Source: a virus. From it: 51,675 nucleotides of DNA. Below the pieces are notes generated by a model that was not told the origin of the DNA, did no database searches, and was given only the letters and a program-made list of their open reading frames with translations. This document shows positions 23,359 through 44,800 of this stretch, piece after piece. Location: positions 1-51,675 of the IMG/VR virus record IMGVR_UViG_3300046690_000480; one strand, given 5' to 3'. The translations under genes and the position numbers were made by a program. Within the stretch, counting starts at the first letter, position 1. Every line of letters begins with the position of its first letter.

Positions 23359-23679
23359 TTACTCGTCGACTTGAATGCCTGCCTTCTTTGCCAAGAACCG
23401 GGTGTACAAACCACCGGCTACATCGGCACCAATCACCGCAATGACGATGCCCAGTCCGGCTGCTAGGTACAGGTTGTTCCAGAGCGCCATTGCGAGCAGC
23501 AGCGTGGCCATACCTAGTAGACCGGATGCGAGAAATCGCAAAGCTACCCGTTGCAGGATTTGCCGAAGACCAAGGTCGCTACCTGACGCCCTCAGCATTT
23601 CTCCCGACAGGCCCGCCATGCTCAGCAAAATCAAAAGCCAAAGGGGCACATCCGCGAGAGCTTGTTGCTCCGTGCTCAT
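23359..23679 (-). CDS. Holin (three-TM, superfamily III/LydA-like)
   Basis: A 106-residue membrane protein with three hydrophobic segments (about residues 12-30, 45-68 and 70-92) and a charged C-terminus. PLWLLILLSMAGLSGEMLRASG and GADVAGGLYTRFLAKKAGI are features I associate with Pseudomonas prophage holins. It times lysis by opening the inner membrane for the GH19 endolysin, encoded 20 kb downstream at the other end of the late operon. First gene after the tR'-like terminator. Confidence 0.85.
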   Translation of the reverse strand: MSTEQQALADVPLWLLILLSMAGLSGEMLRASGSDLGLRQILQRVALRFLASGLLGMATLLLAMALWNNLYLAAGLGIVIAVIGADVAGGLYTRFLAKKAGIQVDE

Positions 23680-23754
23680 CTGTAGTCCTCAAATAGGTTC
23701 GGCCCCCATGTCACTGTCATCCGCGCAGAGCAAAGAGGCAGGCAGGAGGCCGAA

Positions 23755-23784
23755 AAAGAAAAGCCCCGCTCAATGGCAGGGCTT
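23755..23784 (-). terminator. Intrinsic terminator ahead of holin, candidate tR' overcome by Q
   Basis: AAGCCC...GGGCTT stem; on the minus strand it is followed by TCTTTTTCGG. It lies about 75 bp before the holin start, downstream of where a late promoter would be. In λ such a terminator stops transcripts from PR' until Q modifies the polymerase. I could not identify the promoter with confidence; on the minus strand TGAAC repeats near 23845-23870 are possible Q or promoter elements. Confidence 0.55.
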
Positions 23785-24064
23785 GTCAGTAGGTACAAAA
23801 AACGACTCATTGGTCGGGTTTTTGAAAGCGTATCGCTGCGTTCACAGCAGTTCACGCTGGCATAAAAACAAATCTATTCCGTGCGGAAAAGGCATTTTCA
23901 CGCTATGACCAATATTTTCCTCAACTAGGATTTTTCGCTCTGCTGGCCAAATGACGCAAAGATAGCAATATGCCATAATGCGACCCACCCAAGGGGTTCA
24001 CCACAATAATAATTAAAAAACAACAGATAAAGTTAACTACCAACACGGACAAAAGGACGACAAG

Positions 24065-25033
24065 ATGTTAGAGGAAATTTTAAAACTAGCCGACGAAGGC
24101 AAGCTCGTTGCGTATTTAGTTTTAGCACTCATGTATTTAGCGACTGGCTATCTAGTTTATAAGTCCGGAATTGGTAAGAAACTTACTCGGAGTCTCGCGC
24201 TAGTATTTTACTCAGACTCAAGCAGCTATCAATCCAAACGAATGACACAACATTTATTCGAGTTAGAAGAAAAAATCAGGAGTATTCAAAAGCTTCTTTC
24301 AAACAAGAATCTAGAAGCTCAGAGAGCTGCTATTGAGGCTGAACTTGAGGGCCAACTGACTCGAGACATTCCAAAAATAGTTGCCGCAAAACTTGAGAAA
24401 ATCAAAACACTTGACAATGCCTTCGACTCTGAACTTAAAGCCACAATCGTAGACGCCGTATCCGCATTCCTCATCGCGAATGAACCGTCAACGTTACTAG
24501 AGGATAGACGAGAGCAGCTACGAATCAAAGAACGTGCGGAGCGTGGAAACATATTAGAAAAAACGATTCAAGAACAATCCCAAAGCGCTGGCCGCCTTAA
24601 AGCTGTAATGATTAATCTCTTTGTAATATTCAATATCGGCGTTTTACTAATCTACCTATTCGCAGCCACCTCACTAACAGATCGAGCAGTTACTGCAATT
24701 ATCGGCCTGTATGTTAGCTTGGCAGCATTCATTGTATATATTTATCGAACCTCAAACTTCAGATCATCAGTATTACTCGCGCTCAGAGAAGATGCTAAAA
24801 AGTACTTCGACGCAGATGATTATATTAGACGACTGAAGCCAGGTGCTTCGCCTAGCGACAGGGACATTGAAGTCCTGAAGCTACTTTTGCTCAACAGGGC
24901 GGAGCGTGAAAAAATGGCCAATCACCCTTACGAGCTTATTCTAAAAGGCATAACCAACTCAAATATTCAGCTAAAAGGTGGCAAAATGGTTAGCTCAAAA
25001 AAAACCGCAAAGAGTGACTCAGAATCAACTTGA
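24065..25033 (+). CDS. AT-rich membrane protein of unknown function (moron)
   Basis: A 322-residue protein: one N-terminal membrane segment (about residues 14-34), a long charged coiled coil (about 55-180), then two adjacent membrane segments (181-201 and 208-228) and a soluble Lys-rich C-terminus. The gene is far richer in A/T, with many rare codons, than the surrounding genes. It is rightward while everything around it is leftward, has its own AT-rich upstream region and a Shine-Dalgarno (AAAGGACG), and ends at a hairpin. It lies between antiterminator Q and holin. No enzymatic motif is visible. Candidate superinfection exclusion or defence protein (inference only). Confidence 0.85.
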   Translation: MLEEILKLADEGKLVAYLVLALMYLATGYLVYKSGIGKKLTRSLALVFYSDSSSYQSKRMTQHLFELEEKIRSIQKLLSNKNLEAQRAAIEAELEGQLTRDIPKIVAAKLEKIKTLDNAFDSELKATIVDAVSAFLIANEPSTLLEDRREQLRIKERAERGNILEKTIQEQSQSAGRLKAVMINLFVIFNIGVLLIYLFAATSLTDRAVTAIIGLYVSLAAFIVYIYRTSNFRSSVLLALREDAKKYFDADDYIRRLKPGASPSDRDIEVLKLLLLNRAEREKMANHPYELILKGITNSNIQLKGGKMVSSKKTAKSDSEST

Positions 25034-25048
25034 CGTCAAAATAACAAA

Positions 25049-25085
25049 AGGCAGTAATAGGGTTCAAGGAACAAAATTACTGCCT
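25049..25085. terminator. Hairpin after the moron gene
   Basis: A ten-base-pair perfect stem AGGCAGTAAT / ATTACTGCCT with a 17-base loop, 13 bp after the stop codon. The U-tract is poor, so termination is uncertain. A second hairpin (TGATCTTT / AAAGATCA, 25101-25127) follows and reaches the Q stop codon. Confidence 0.45.
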
Positions 25086-25124
25086 CCTCAAGTAAGGCAT
25101 TTGATCTTTGACTTGCCTTAAAGA

Positions 25125-25514
25125 TCAGGCGACCTTCCGAAACTCACTTACGACACAATCAATCCAAGCTGCCCCTGCTCTGGCCAACTCTCGCGCCTTA
25201 CCTTCACTGATTCCATATTGCTTCCCTACCCTTACCATTGCCCACTTCGCTCCATAGTAGAGCCAGATAATATCCCCCATTTGCTGATCTCGATTCGCTA
25301 GCTTAGCTACGGCGTTGTCGATAGCTATAGCCCAGTCATCAGTAATGCAGTAATTCTTGCTTGATGCAGCTTGTGGCATCGCTTGTCGCATCAGCGAGAG
25401 CGTCGGAGATGTGTAACCGGGTATACCCATTCCATCCATCCTCCACCAACCCCACTGCTCGAGCAGGTACTCGGTATCGCCCAACGGTCGTCCTGCCGGT
25501 TTACGAATCATCAT
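25125..25514 (-). CDS. Antitermination protein Q
   Basis: A 129-residue protein of the phage antitermination Q type seen in Pseudomonas prophages: PAGRPLGDTEYLLEQWGWWRMDGMGIPGY near the start, then a C-terminal helix-turn-helix-like ISEGKARELARAGAAWI. It should bind near the late promoter and let RNA polymerase read through terminators into holin, packaging, head, tail and lysis genes. I choose ATG 25514; an in-frame TTG nine bases upstream overlaps the previous stop. Last gene of the PR-side early operon. Confidence 0.85.
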   Translation of the reverse strand: MMIRKPAGRPLGDTEYLLEQWGWWRMDGMGIPGYTSPTLSLMRQAMPQAASSKNYCITDDWAIAIDNAVAKLANRDQQMGDIIWLYYGAKWAMVRVGKQYGISEGKARELARAGAAWIDCVVSEFRKVA

Positions 25515-25519
25515 TCCCT

Positions 25520-25840
25520 TCAATCCCCTGTGTAATTTGTGCCGCCCGCCCCCAGGCGGTTAGATCGTTCATATGGGCTCTGTGACTCGCTCGTCGATGG
25601 CGAACCTTTCAGTACTGAAATTTCACGCTGAGCACTCTGTAATTTGAAACTTAACTGGGTGACCAACTCGTCGGTAGAAAGCACCAACTTGCTGCCCTGA
25701 ATAACCCAACCTGAACCGTTGCAGTCAGCGCAAACCAGCTCATAAAACAGCCCTTCCACTACCGCTTTTCCCGCGCAGATTGAACAAGGCTCCAGCTCGA
25801 TCCGCTCTCGCTTAAAGCCAGGCACTCGCCTTTTCTGCAT
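25520..25840 (-). CDS. Hypothetical zinc-ribbon phage protein
   Basis: A 106-residue protein with two Cys pairs, CSIC (residues 19-22) and CADC (37-40), spaced as a zinc ribbon. A predicted helical segment and a Ser/Gly-rich end follow. It lies in the nin-like region between the internal recombinase (overlap of 29 bases) and Q. Probably nucleic-acid or protein binding; function unknown. Confidence 0.75.
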   Translation of the reverse strand: MQKRRVPGFKRERIELEPCSICAGKAVVEGLFYELVCADCNGSGWVIQGSKLVLSTDELVTQLSFKLQSAQREISVLKGSPSTSESQSPYERSNRLGAGGTNYTGD

Positions 25841-27125
25841 GATTTAAAACCTCGCCTATGGTTGTTTCTTCAGTGGCCTTGCGGGCCTTATGTTCTGTGG
25901 CTTGCAGCGAATTACCAGAATCTTCAAATCTAAAGCCGGTCAATCCATGAATCGCTGCAAAGCCTTTCTGATCTAGATGTGCGTGCCACTGTTCAAGGGC
26001 ATCCCGCTTGCGGCTCATTACGTCCGACTGGATGTAAACCTTCACGTTGTGCCCCATCGCGTGGTTGATTAGCAGCTCGCCTATCAGGTGGTCGATGCCG
26101 ATATCTGCCCAGCCAGTGCGCGCCACCTTGCGCAAGTCGTGACTGGTCCACTCGCCCTTTCCCAACCGACGGAACACGGCGCAGCCTTGTGCCTCGCCCA
26201 GCGCCTTGCCATTGCGCGCAGGGAACAGGCATTGGCCGTCATAGCCTCGGGCGTACTGACTTTCTCGGTACCGGGTCAGCAGCGTGCAAACCTGCTCGGT
26301 CAGGGGCAGGTGATGCTCGACACCGGTTTTCGTGTTCTCGGCCGGGATGAACCATTCGCGTTCGGCCAGGCTGATGTGCGACCAGCGCGCCATCCGGGTT
26401 TCACCGATCCGCGTGCCATGGCAGAGCATCATCAGTGCGAGCATCGAATCCAGCGGCGCGGTGCTCATGACTTCGGCCAGTTGCCCGAGCAGGCCTTCCA
26501 ACTGAACGCCGCGCAGACGGGACGGCTTGATGCCGACCTTTGCCTTAGAGAAGTCGTTGAACCGGATCGCTGCCATCGGGTTGGACGTGATCATCCCCAG
26601 CTTGGCCGCTTGCCGGAATGACAAGGCCAACAGCTGAAACGCGGAACGTACGTAGTCGATGGAAACCGTCTCCTGCAGCGGCCACATCAGCAGGGTGTCG
26701 AGAGCGGCCTTGTCGATGCCGATCAGGGGCAGCTCGCCGAGGCGCGGTTTCAGGTGGCACTTGATGATCGAGGCGCCGGTGTTTTTACGTTTGGTCGACA
26801 GATTGCGATCGCGCGACATGCGATCAGCGAACCAGTCCAGCAGTTCGCCAACAGCGTTCCACTTCGACAGGCTCGCGCCCTCCCCGGCGGCCAGACGCAG
26901 CCGAAGCGACGGCAGCGCCGCTACAACTTGTTTGTGAGTCAGCTCGGGGAACGTGCCGATGGGATTCCACTTGCCCTTCAACACCAGGTACCACGAGCCA
27001 CCGGTTCGAGCCTTGTTGAAGCGCAGGTACAGCCCCTTATTCTCAATGTCGCGTACGTCCTGTACGGTGCCGGCCACTTGGCGCTTGATCTCAGCTTCGG
27101 TGATCTTCACCGCGGCGGTACTCAT
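25812..27125 (-). CDS. Internal tyrosine recombinase in the replication/nin region
   Basis: A 437-residue tyrosine recombinase, complete by motif. An N-terminal DUF4102-like arm-binding part and a core-binding domain (about 90-195) are followed by a catalytic domain with Arg239 (CHGTRIGETR), His329 and Arg332 (SHDLRKVART), His355 and the nucleophile Tyr364 (HAMGHNVKVY). It is the second recombinase of the prophage and lies 17 kb from the att-proximal integrase, inside the leftward early operon (ATGA overlap with the DUF1364 gene). It would be expressed with lytic genes, which suggests a role in phage DNA processing, dimer resolution or inversion rather than integration (inference). Confidence 0.88.
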   Translation of the reverse strand: MSTAAVKITEAEIKRQVAGTVQDVRDIENKGLYLRFNKARTGGSWYLVLKGKWNPIGTFPELTHKQVVAALPSLRLRLAAGEGASLSKWNAVGELLDWFADRMSRDRNLSTKRKNTGASIIKCHLKPRLGELPLIGIDKAALDTLLMWPLQETVSIDYVRSAFQLLALSFRQAAKLGMITSNPMAAIRFNDFSKAKVGIKPSRLRGVQLEGLLGQLAEVMSTAPLDSMLALMMLCHGTRIGETRMARWSHISLAEREWFIPAENTKTGVEHHLPLTEQVCTLLTRYRESQYARGYDGQCLFPARNGKALGEAQGCAVFRRLGKGEWTSHDLRKVARTGWADIGIDHLIGELLINHAMGHNVKVYIQSDVMSRKRDALEQWHAHLDQKGFAAIHGLTGFRFEDSGNSLQATEHKARKATEETTIGEVLNHAEKASAWL

Positions 27126-30266: not shown

Positions 30267-31061
30267 ATGAAAAAAGACTCCCGACGGCTTCCGCTATCCG
30301 AATGGCAGCTGCAAGACAGCGCGCGCTTGAAATCCATATTCCAAGCGAAACGTGGGGAGCTGAAGCTCACCCAGGAAAAGCTCGCATCCGAGCTGGGAGA
30401 CGGGGTAACCCAAGGCGCTGTGAGCCATTTTATGAATGGCCGCACGGCGCTGAGTGTTAATGCAGCGGTAGTTTTTGCTAGGGCGCTTGATGTGCCGATA
30501 TCCGATATCAGCCCAACCCTTGCAGCTCAAATCGAGAAAATGACATCCGCCCTACCCGACCGTCGTCCGACGGCAGCTGATCATGCGATTGATACACGAA
30601 TCCCTCCGCGAGGATTTGATCTTAAGGATGATCCTAGTTACACCGGCGTTCTCCAGCTCACTGCTCAAGGATCAGCTGGTACCGGCGAAGAAAACCCTCA
30701 CGTAGAGATTCGTGGCGTCATGGCGTTCAAGTCGTCTTGGCTACGGGCGAACAACCTGAACCAGCGGCATCTGGACGTCATCTATGCGAGCGGGCACAGC
30801 ATGGAGCCAACCATCAACGACGGCGACGTCCTGCTAGTGGATGAGTCGAGTATTGAGCCGAAAGATGGCCACATCTTCGCCATGCAAAGCGCCACCAAAG
30901 GCACGATCGTGAAGCGTCTGGTGAAGTCGGACATCGAGGGCTGGATCATCCGTAGCGACAACTCGGACAAGACGCGGTACGGCGATGAGATTCTGCGTGA
31001 CGGTGAAATAAACGAAGTCCGCATCATCGGACGCGTGGTTTGGCGCGGCGGGATGCTCTAA
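30267..31061 (+). CDS. cI: CI repressor, LexA/S24 self-cleaving
   Basis: A 264-residue repressor. An N-terminal helix-turn-helix (about 35-85, LTQEKLASELGDGVTQGAVSHFMNGRTAL) is followed by a linker with a likely Ala137-Gly138 cleavage site and a peptidase S24 domain with Ser178 (GHSMEPT) and Lys216 (TIVKRL). DNA damage through RecA should trigger self-cleavage and induction. PRM would start transcription within a few bases of the ATG, and no Shine-Dalgarno is seen, so the message from PRM is probably leaderless as in λ. The SLATT pair follows on the same strand. Confidence 0.95.
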   Translation: MKKDSRRLPLSEWQLQDSARLKSIFQAKRGELKLTQEKLASELGDGVTQGAVSHFMNGRTALSVNAAVVFARALDVPISDISPTLAAQIEKMTSALPDRRPTAADHAIDTRIPPRGFDLKDDPSYTGVLQLTAQGSAGTGEENPHVEIRGVMAFKSSWLRANNLNQRHLDVIYASGHSMEPTINDGDVLLVDESSIEPKDGHIFAMQSATKGTIVKRLVKSDIEGWIIRSDNSDKTRYGDEILRDGEINEVRIIGRVVWRGGML

Positions 31062-37869: not shown

Positions 37870-39337
37870 ATGAACATCACTTATGGAAGCGTCTGCTCCG
37901 GCATTGAGGCGGCAACGCTTGCGTGGAAGCCGCTCGGCATGCGCGCCGCCTGGTTCGCCGAGATAGACCCCTTCCCCAGCGCAGTGCTCGCCCACCACTA
38001 CCCGAATACGCCGAACCTTGGCGACATGACCAAACTCGGCGCCCAGGTGCTGGCCGGAAAGATCGCCGCACCGGACGTCCTCGTCGGCGGAACCCCGTGC
38101 CAGGCGTTCAGCGTCCGGCATGCGCGAAGGACTCACCGACCCACGCGGCGCCCTCACCATCAAATATGTGGAGCTTGCAGATGCAGTTGACTATGTTCGC
38201 GCCGGCCAGCGAAAGCCCGCCTGCGTTGTCGTATGGGAAAACGTTCCCGGTGTCCTCAGCGACAAAGGGAACGCCTTCGGATGCTTTCTTGGCGCGCTTG
38301 CTGGGGAAGACTGCGAACTGCAGCCTTCAGGGAAGAAGTGGCCGGACGCTGGTTGTGTGTATGGACCCAAAAGAACAATCGCGTGGAGGGTCTTGGACGC
38401 CCAATATTTCGGCTTGGCCCAACGACGCCGCCGTGTGTTCGTTATCGCAAGTGCTCGAGACGGATTCGATCCCACCGAGGTACTTTTTGAGCGCGACGGC
38501 GTGCGCAGGGATTATGCGCCGCGCCTTGGCGAGGAAGAAAACATTGCCAGCACCATTGCAGGCGGCGCTCGAAAGAGGGGCGGATACAGCACGGACGATA
38601 TCCCTCTGACCGCGCCAACTCTCCGCGCGCAATCACAAAGCAGCCATCGTGCAGACTCCGAAGCATTCATTCCGGTATCGGCTTATGGCGGCGGACGAAC
38701 CAGCGGGGCAATAGAGGTCGCGGCTTGCCTGACCGCAAAAGGGATGCGGATTGATTTTGAAGTTGAGAGCTTCGTGGTGCACGGCACTCAGGATCCCGAT
38801 GTGCGAATCGATCAAACGCACACACTCGGCAGAAACAATGGGATGGAAAATGCCGTGCTTGCTTTCTCATGCAAGGATTACGGCGCGGATGCCGGGGATG
38901 TCGCGCCAACACTGCGCGCCATGAACCACTCGGGAAGCCATGCAAACGGTGGCGGTCAGGTTGCAATCGTCGCATCAGTTTCACCCACCCTCAGATCGGG
39001 GAACATGTGGAATAACAGCAACCCAGTGACCGAGGCTGAAATGCTGGTAGGCGGATCAATGGTTCGGCGCTTGACTCCGCGTGAGTGCGAACGCCTACAA
39101 GGTATGCCGGACGACTACACGCATATCCCTTGGGATGGCTGGCGAAAGCTCGACGCCGACGAGACTCCGGAGCAGTGCATCGCCGACGGCATGGACGTGC
39201 GCCAAGCAAAGAAAAGCAAAGCATGGTACGTGCGAGACGCCGACGGGCCGCGCTACAAGGCGATCGGCAACAGCAAGGCCGTGCCTTGCGTACGCTGGAT
39301 TGGCCGGCGGATTCTGCGGCAGCTTGGCGCTACTTAG
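37870..39337 (+). pseudogene. Cytosine-C5 DNA methyltransferase split by a frameshift
   Basis: The first frame (37870-38190) has the SAM-binding start NITYGSVCSGIEAATLAWKP and the catalytic GGTPCQAFSV. The second (from about 38117 to 39337) continues MREGLTDPRGALTIKY, VVWENVPGVLS, QRRRRVFVIA, a long target-recognition region and a C-terminal RRLTPRECERLQGMPDDYT plus AIGNSKAVP. The join at about 38115 lacks two bases compared with the expected SVAGMREG. The rest is undamaged, so inactivation is recent, or a frameshift restores about 490 residues. The intact enzyme would methylate phage DNA against host restriction. Confidence 0.85.
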
Positions 39338-43512: not shown

Positions 43513-44562
43513 ATGCGACCCCGCAAGGCCGACACACGCAACCTGCCGCCCCGGATGTACCAGTGGACGCGGACACGTAAAAGCGGAAAGGTCTGGATCT
43601 CCTATTTCTATCTGGACCTCACCGGAAAAGCGATACCGCTGGGCAAAGACCTAGACCAGGCCAGAATCAAATGGGCAGAGCTGGAAGCCAAGGAAAAACC
43701 ACTCGACCTGCGCACGATGAAGGGGATTTTCGATAGGTACATCCGCGACATCGTGCCCAAGAAAGCCCCGCGCACGCAAAAGGACAATATGGCGGAGATC
43801 AAGCAGCTACGGACGATGTTCGATAGCGCACCGATTGACTTGATCACGCCGTCGACGATCGCAGGTTACCGCGACGCCCGATCGGCAAAGGTACGGGCGA
43901 ATCGGGAAATCGCCACCCTTTCCCACATTTTCAACATTGCTCGGGAGTGGGGCCTGACGACAAAGGAAAATCCTTGCCAGGGAGTACGCAAAAACAAAGA
44001 GACACCGAGGGATTACTACGCGAACGACGTGGTTTGGGAGGCGGTTTACAGGAAGGCAGCTCAAGAGCTGAAAGACGCGATGGACCTGGCTTATCTGACC
44101 GGTCAGCGGCCGGCGGATGTGCTGGTCATGAGAGACGATGATATTCAGGGCGGATACCTCACCGTCCAGCAGAACAAGACGCACAAGAAGCTGCGCATCC
44201 AGATGACTGACGGCGGTGAGCTGAACAGTTTGGGGCTACTGATCACAGCAATGGCTGAGCGCAATGCCCAGCACATTTGCAGCTATTTGATCGTAAGCGC
44301 ACGCGGCAAGCGGATGACCGCGAAGATGCTTCGCGACCGATGGGACGACGCCAGAGAAAGAGCCAAGAAAGAGGCTGAAGAAAAAGGCGATGTTCAGCTG
44401 GCGGAGAAAATCGGAGGCTTCCAGTTCAGAGACATCAGACCGAAAGCGGCGTCGGAAATCCTCGATGTCGGCGATGCGAGTCTACTCTTGGGGCACACCA
44501 AAGGAGACATTACCGAACGCGTCTATCGACGAATTGGCGCCATTGCCAAGCCATCGAAATAG
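43513..44562 (+). CDS. int: Integrase, tyrosine recombinase (att-proximal)
   Basis: A 349-residue tyrosine recombinase: N-terminal arm-binding region (1-60), core-binding domain (about 65-150), catalytic domain with Arg199 (TGQRPADVL), Arg309 (RDIRPKAAS), His328 (LLGHTKGDI) and nucleophile Tyr338 (ERVYRR). The usual His of HxxR is Arg306. It lies 124 bp from attR and is the last gene of the rightward operon, so it would be made soon after infection from PL. It inserts the phage into tRNA-Ser(UGA). Confidence 0.94.
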   Translation: MRPRKADTRNLPPRMYQWTRTRKSGKVWISYFYLDLTGKAIPLGKDLDQARIKWAELEAKEKPLDLRTMKGIFDRYIRDIVPKKAPRTQKDNMAEIKQLRTMFDSAPIDLITPSTIAGYRDARSAKVRANREIATLSHIFNIAREWGLTTKENPCQGVRKNKETPRDYYANDVVWEAVYRKAAQELKDAMDLAYLTGQRPADVLVMRDDDIQGGYLTVQQNKTHKKLRIQMTDGGELNSLGLLITAMAERNAQHICSYLIVSARGKRMTAKMLRDRWDDARERAKKEAEEKGDVQLAEKIGGFQFRDIRPKAASEILDVGDASLLLGHTKGDITERVYRRIGAIAKPSK

Positions 44563-44686: not shown

Positions 44687-44800
44687 CGGTCTTGAAAACC
44701 GTCGACTGTAACAGGTCCATGAGTTCGAATCCCATCGCCTCCGCCATCTTATGTACGACAAAGCCCTGATTATTCAGGGCTTTGTCGTTTCTGGGGGTTG
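44687..44800 (+). repeat. attR: right copy of 114-bp att repeat
   Basis: Begins CGGTCTTGAAAACCG and runs to GGGGGTTG, matching 168-281 with one mismatch. It contains the tRNA-Ser 3' half (no 5' half) and a copy of the terminator hairpin (44760-44783). Chromosomal-side DNA begins at 44801. Confidence 0.93.

Follow-up and report, generated by a model that had tools for sequence, protein, structure and literature searches.

The window, i.e. the whole stretch of 51,675 nucleotides that was analysed (IMG/VR record IMGVR_UViG_3300046690_000480), is a provirus holding a complete Pseudomonas prophage in tRNA-Ser. The att sites are marked by the end of tRNA-Ser, which recurs as a direct repeat (168-281 and 44687-44800; additional matches extend to ~628 and ~45097, respectively); the integrase gene (43513-44562) lies just inside the prophage end and bacterial genes are found from ~45 kb. 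The similarity between the att repeats continues piecewise for several hundred bases, which suggests repeated integration at the tRNA-Ser site. The interval of interest lies between two conserved minus-strand genes, encoding the antiterminator Q (25125-25523; PF06530, E=1.8e-10; phrog_79, E=3.9e-28) and a superfamily III holin, Hol (23359-23679; PF16085, E=8.5e-23; phrog_3897, E=8.5e-39). All phage-record matches of Q (43/43) are Pseudomonas phages, and 80 viral contigs carry a holin 84-100% identical to that of the window. A second integrase-family gene (25812-27125, minus strand; phrog_1, E=9.2e-45) is situated between the replication genes and Q, and it is retained in relatives, including the isolate phage PseuP_224.

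A single gene (24065-25033, plus strand), the candidate exclusion gene of this work, lies between Q and the holin gene and is opposed in strand to both. It encodes a 322-aa protein with three transmembrane (TM) segments predicted by hydropathy (residues 14-32, 181-199 and 208-226), the first of which is separated from the second by a charged helical stretch. The AF2 model of the protein is all-helical with a long helix (56-138/141-200), at a pLDDT of only 62. The GC content of the gene is 0.414 and its GC3 is 0.385, compared to a GC content of 0.574 for the window and a GC3 of 0.72-0.74 in terL, the portal gene and the integrase-like gene. The AT-rich, reversed gene for a three-TM, coiled-coil protein that the preliminary description had placed between Q and holin is thus confirmed by the open reading frame (ORF), the base composition and the hydropathy profile.

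A Shine-Dalgarno sequence, AAGGA (24053-24057, plus strand), lies 7 nt ahead of the ATG. Further upstream, a promoter is predicted (23951-23979, plus strand; ATGACG, 17 bp, CATAAT with an extended TG), 29 of 33 positions of which are the same in the closest relative (L003), whereas the surrounding upstream DNA has diverged. The homologue on contig L010, which resides outside the Q-holin interval, is preceded by a consensus promoter (TTGACA-17-TATAAA). Between the convergent 3' ends of the gene and Q there is a palindromic hairpin (25050-25084), which is likely a bidirectional terminator. The hairpins noted earlier behind the gene are real: the stretch 25031-25124 folds with -25.1 kcal/mol (z -3.5), a value equalled by none of 200 shuffles, and a palindrome is present at this place in every copy of the three-TM gene that sits between Q and holin. 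Since the ORF has homologues with a dN/dS of ~0.04, a Shine-Dalgarno sequence and a conserved extended -10 element, we regard it as a real gene, not a chance ORF. Judged by its sequence only, it is an autonomous transcription unit, consisting of one gene with its own predicted promoter and terminator, and together with its foreign composition and its absence from close relatives these are the marks of a moron.

Related loci were retrieved via the holin and via Q, mostly from metagenome contigs; 134 loci were read, which gave 79 distinct Q-holin intervals. Their length ranges from 255 bp to 3652 bp (L109), the shortest being an empty site (L064/L117) in which a 35-bp spacer stands in place of the cargo. 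The ORFs of at least 110 aa found in the 79 intervals fall into 64 clusters without mutual similarity, some of the short ORFs being perhaps spurious; 54 clusters include proteins of 150 aa or more, and 42 include proteins of 200 aa or more. The comparison of this interval in related prophages, suggested in the preliminary description, did therefore reveal different cargo. The median GC content of the cargo is 0.42-0.44, and the main cargo gene is co-directional with its neighbours in 33 intervals and opposed in 27. A stable hairpin directly after Q accompanies 23 of 27 opposed cargo genes (85%) versus 4 of 33 co-directional ones (12%; p=8e-9), a bias that is expected if opposed genes need stopping before Q. 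Two cargo units can share one interval, as in L007 and L011, where a gene encoding 345 aa lies beside the three-TM gene; this 345-aa gene has no Pfam match and occurs alone in L034. No transposase or integrase was seen in the slot. Conserved flanks with non-homologous content between them (79 intervals, one empty site) mark the Q-holin interval, as judged from the alignments, as a hypervariable cargo slot in these Pseudomonas prophages.

The same alignment delimits what is foreign in the window. About 215 bp ahead of holin are conserved in nearly all 79 intervals and form a block joined to the holin gene (23680-23892, minus strand, end approximate). The block consists, in order, of TTTTCCGC(G/A)CGGAATA, a -10-like TG-N-TTT-N-AT and two tandem terminators. 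The palindrome TTCCGC(G/A)CGGAA plus TG-N-TTTTAT (23853-23890, minus strand), a putative Q-dependent PR', was found only once in the window by pattern search, shuffled sequences being expected to yield none, and a close version of it is present in 75 IMG/VR stretches. It is followed by a first, tR'1-like stem (23803-23816) with a T run on the minus strand, and by a second, tR'2-like terminator (23761-23784, minus strand) of nine pairs and then TTCTTTTTC. The latter is the tR'-like terminator seen earlier in front of holin, to which the first stem is now added. By position and by likeness to lambda, the conserved block would correspond to PR'-tR'. The foreign segment is consequently shorter than the originally proposed 23680-25124: the 1232 bp from about 23893 to 25124 (41% GC; start approximate), delimited by the alignment of the Q-holin intervals and by composition, are cargo, while 23680 to ~23892 is the late-control block of the phage itself. 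Because the cargo is placed between the Q stop and the conserved block, it is predicted to be outside the late transcript, upstream of the putative PR', with late control undisturbed. The suggestion that the insertion alters the late-promoter context is contradicted by this arrangement, in which the putative PR' and both terminators are contiguous with holin.

The assigned content of the slot is mainly of anti-phage defence families, and most of the cargo has no function assignment. The identifiable cargo includes KAP_NTPase/PDC-S49 (E=1.5e-142), NsnA (E=8.7e-72) and PD-T4-2_A (E=3.5e-33) with GmrSD_N, five members of the OLD/AriA/GajA/PtuA-like ATPases (Old, E=3.3e-66; AriA, E=2.3e-39), an OLD-TOPRIM nuclease, ApeA_NTD1 plus HEPN_Apea, and proteins with NACHT, nSTAND1, PDC-S31 or DUF4238 (DUF4238-Pers). 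PADLOC profiles are matched with an E of 1e-5 or lower by at least 10 of 45 cargo proteins, compared to a single one of the window's 26 core genes, which encodes a methylase (p=0.036); taken alone, this enrichment is modest. A NUDIX-like and a MerR-like ORF, both recognised by eye in L075, look non-defensive.

Outside the slot, the prophage has a second AT-rich block (34993-37793; GC 0.40-0.46) with three minus-strand genes, one of which (36711-37793) matches putAbiC (PF16872, E=1.2e-19); a C5-methylase gene (38120-39337) adjoins the block. In lambda, the rex genes lie directly downstream of the cI repressor gene. The same position, directly downstream of a cI-like repressor gene (30267-31061), is taken here by a gene (31287-31826, plus strand) for a small protein that looks two-TM and by eye resembles SLATT proteins; it has no Pfam or PADLOC match.

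Relatives of the 322-aa protein are encoded on several further IMG/VR contigs, with 87% identity in L003 and 56-62% identity in the others, and a distant one (33-36% identity) in a Marinomonas chromosome. The three-TM family occupies 7 of the 79 distinct Q-holin intervals. Seven of the eight distinct phage copies reside in this slot; the remaining one (L010/L002) is found where a tail/lysis operon ends, flanked by a spanin-like gene on one side and a dam-like methylase gene on the other (names given by eye). The homologues are thus not conserved structural genes of related phages, the outcome that would have spoken against a cargo gene; a structural role was rejected on the low number of intervals having the gene and on the lack of a match in 50,697 phage records. 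A plasmid search gave no match either, and genome searches revealed Marinomonas only, plus a marginal match in G276; these searches relied on exact short peptides, which distant relatives can escape. No broken copies of the gene were seen among the homologues found. In Marinomonas MED121 (L014, 6627-8759), the distant relative is the last of three genes arranged head to tail, after an FRG-domain gene and a barstar gene; the three possibly form a chromosomal defence operon, and an apparent IS110-type transposase gene comes next. The L003 contig carries a holin fragment fused to a shortened tape-measure gene (2560-2900), the cargo gene and Q being intact; either this prophage is rearranged or defective, or the fusion arose in assembly.

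The dN/dS of ~0.04 applies to the whole gene, as calculated between the window and L003, and shows it to be under purifying selection. The identity between these two proteins is, however, graded along the chain: 67% in residues 1-48, 83% in 49-174 and 96% in 175-315. Synonymous sites in 175-315 are saturated, therefore it is protein function, not recent transfer, that holds the C-terminal part constant. The gradient is steeper with L004, L005 and L010, which share only 19-28% identity with the window protein in residues 1-48 and 83-87% in the C-terminal part, and it is alike between L004 and L007 (23% and 88%, respectively).

No relative of known function was found for the 322-aa protein by sequence or by fold in PADLOC, Pfam, NCBIfam, PHROGs, PDB and BFVD. 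The best PADLOC match (Cas11d, E=0.009) is weak, runs across a coil and was judged a coil artefact. PHROGs gave no match and the Pfam matches of the protein were below cut-off; the hits to CUPID, KIP1, ING, Vma12 and Phage_holin_10, being scattered, sub-cut-off or confined to single members, were taken as coil or TM matches. The PDB sequence profile search resulted in chance coiled-coil matches only. Foldseek searches of PDB and BFVD with two AF2 models yielded nothing at an E below 0.001, and these models, both all-helical (pLDDT 52 and 62, pTM 0.23-0.25), were considered too weak for fold claims. The protein does not resemble the putAbiC protein encoded elsewhere in the prophage or any of the other membrane cargo proteins with which it was compared.

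The preliminary description had proposed a lysogenic conversion or exclusion gene. That the gene is foreign cargo, most likely of the conversion or exclusion kind, is well supported by the slot comparison, and an anti-phage function of the 322-aa protein is what we infer from the company it keeps in the slot. We consider it rather probable that the gene serves exclusion or abortive infection and that the slot housing it is a phage defence hotspot. We propose that the gene is a self-contained lysogenic-conversion unit housed in a slot for defence cargo, which a family of Pseudomonas prophages has between Q and the late promoter, the cargo being exchanged probably by homologous recombination via the conserved Q and PR'-tR' flanks. 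Transcription of the gene would take place while the lysogen is quiescent, and the product would be an inner-membrane protein whose coiled coil and C-terminal tail are predicted to be cytoplasmic by the positive-inside rule. There, it may shield the lysogen from other phages; a membrane effector that works by exclusion or abortive infection is the most likely form. The variable N-terminal half and the fixed C-terminal membrane half suggest a sensor and an effector: the fast-diverging N-terminal TM segment and coiled coil could recognise a signal of infection or bind to it, and the TM hairpin and C-terminal tail, which hardly vary, could target the membrane or a conserved partner in the host. 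In this proposed mode, i.e. acting on the lysogen membrane after infection, the protein resembles RexB and other abortive-infection membrane effectors, to which no sequence or fold match was found. RexB requires RexA; the 322-aa protein, in contrast, is encoded by a single gene.

An unlikely, if still appreciable, alternative is superinfection exclusion of the Sie/Imm type, in which DNA entry of related phages would be blocked at the inner membrane, with no post-entry suicide effector. A single membrane-protein gene with its own predicted promoter in the lysogen would agree with this, and a variable N-terminal region would suit a shifting specificity for incoming phages. However, the Sie/Imm-type proteins known so far are small, with about 60-160 aa, and lack the 120-residue cytoplasmic coiled coil predicted for the 322-aa protein, and the identifiable slot neighbours are mostly post-entry systems. 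Somewhat less probable again is a lysogenic-conversion gene for a host trait besides phage resistance, related to the envelope, stress or competition: the protein itself has no defence-family match and the slot can carry mixed cargo, but what can be identified in the slot is mainly of the defence type and the same prophage possesses the putAbiC gene in its second AT-rich block.

A regulator of the adjoining holin, i.e. an antiholin or lysis-timing protein, would likewise be a membrane protein next to holin, and one family member has a weak Phage_holin_10 match (E=0.002). Such a regulator would be co-transcribed and conserved with the lysis genes. The three-TM gene is on the strand opposed to the late operon, has PR'-tR' between itself and holin, is replaced by unrelated soluble proteins in most relatives and has a distant copy in a chromosome, all of which makes this function very improbable. 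That the gene, rare and AT-rich as it is, should be a neutral passenger or a decaying ORF is hardly credible in view of the low dN/dS, the conserved promoter, start and terminator and the intact state of all copies seen.

In the late control region of lambda, the order is Q, PR', tR' and S, with PR' directly after Q. The Pseudomonas prophages share the order of Q, promoter, terminators and lysis genes on one strand, but differ in that 35 bp to more than 3 kb separate Q from the putative PR' and in that their Q is of the PF06530 family. Gene Q of phage P2, in contrast, is a packaging gene, not an antiterminator. P2-like phages have a defence hotspot flanked by genes Q and A, and P4 satellites have one near cos (Rousset et al. 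2022, PMC9122126). Like these, the slot described here is a fixed site at which defence genes of many unrelated kinds, OLD/AriA-type ATPases and transmembrane proteins among them, replace one another; unlike these, it is found in Pseudomonas prophages between an antiterminator gene and the late promoter, and it is known from sequence alone, whereas the activity of the P2/P4 hotspots was shown by plating (PMC9122126). Dedicated defence positions have also been described in Felsduovirus prophages (PMC10121019), and core defence hotspots in the chromosome of P. aeruginosa (PMC10250203). Shiga-toxin phages are lambdoid prophages that likewise have accessory genes close to where Q meets the lysis genes; however, stx is downstream of PR' and is co-transcribed with the late genes (PMC8065619), while the slot cargo is upstream of the putative PR', is often opposed and has its own predicted promoter and terminator. 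Tab of the P. aeruginosa phage JBD26 is, like the proposed exclusion gene, a single-gene moron of a Pseudomonas prophage, and its action is anti-phage, but it encodes 83 aa and is located in the late operon between the terminase genes (PMC10884400); no sequence similarity between Tab and the 322-aa protein is claimed. In the part of the literature covered, we found no account of a slot that Pseudomonas phages would have between the antiterminator gene Q and the late promoter.

A wider claim, to which we give somewhat less than an even chance, has two parts: the region separating Q from the late promoter in these Pseudomonas prophages would be an undescribed defence hotspot with dozens of uncharacterised single-gene systems, and the three-TM protein would be the first member of a new family of membrane exclusion effectors, in which the sensor at the N-terminus diversifies and the effector at the C-terminus hardly changes. 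Prophage defence hotspots are productive ground for discovering anti-phage systems. The borders of this slot are easy to recognise, with Q at one end and, ahead of holin at the other, the palindrome with its double terminator, and the many long, domain-less cargo genes beside clear defence genes provide a ready list of candidates. The arrangement also indicates how these prophages may carry foreign genes without upsetting late control: the cargo would enter upstream of the putative PR', and opposed genes would bring their own terminator.
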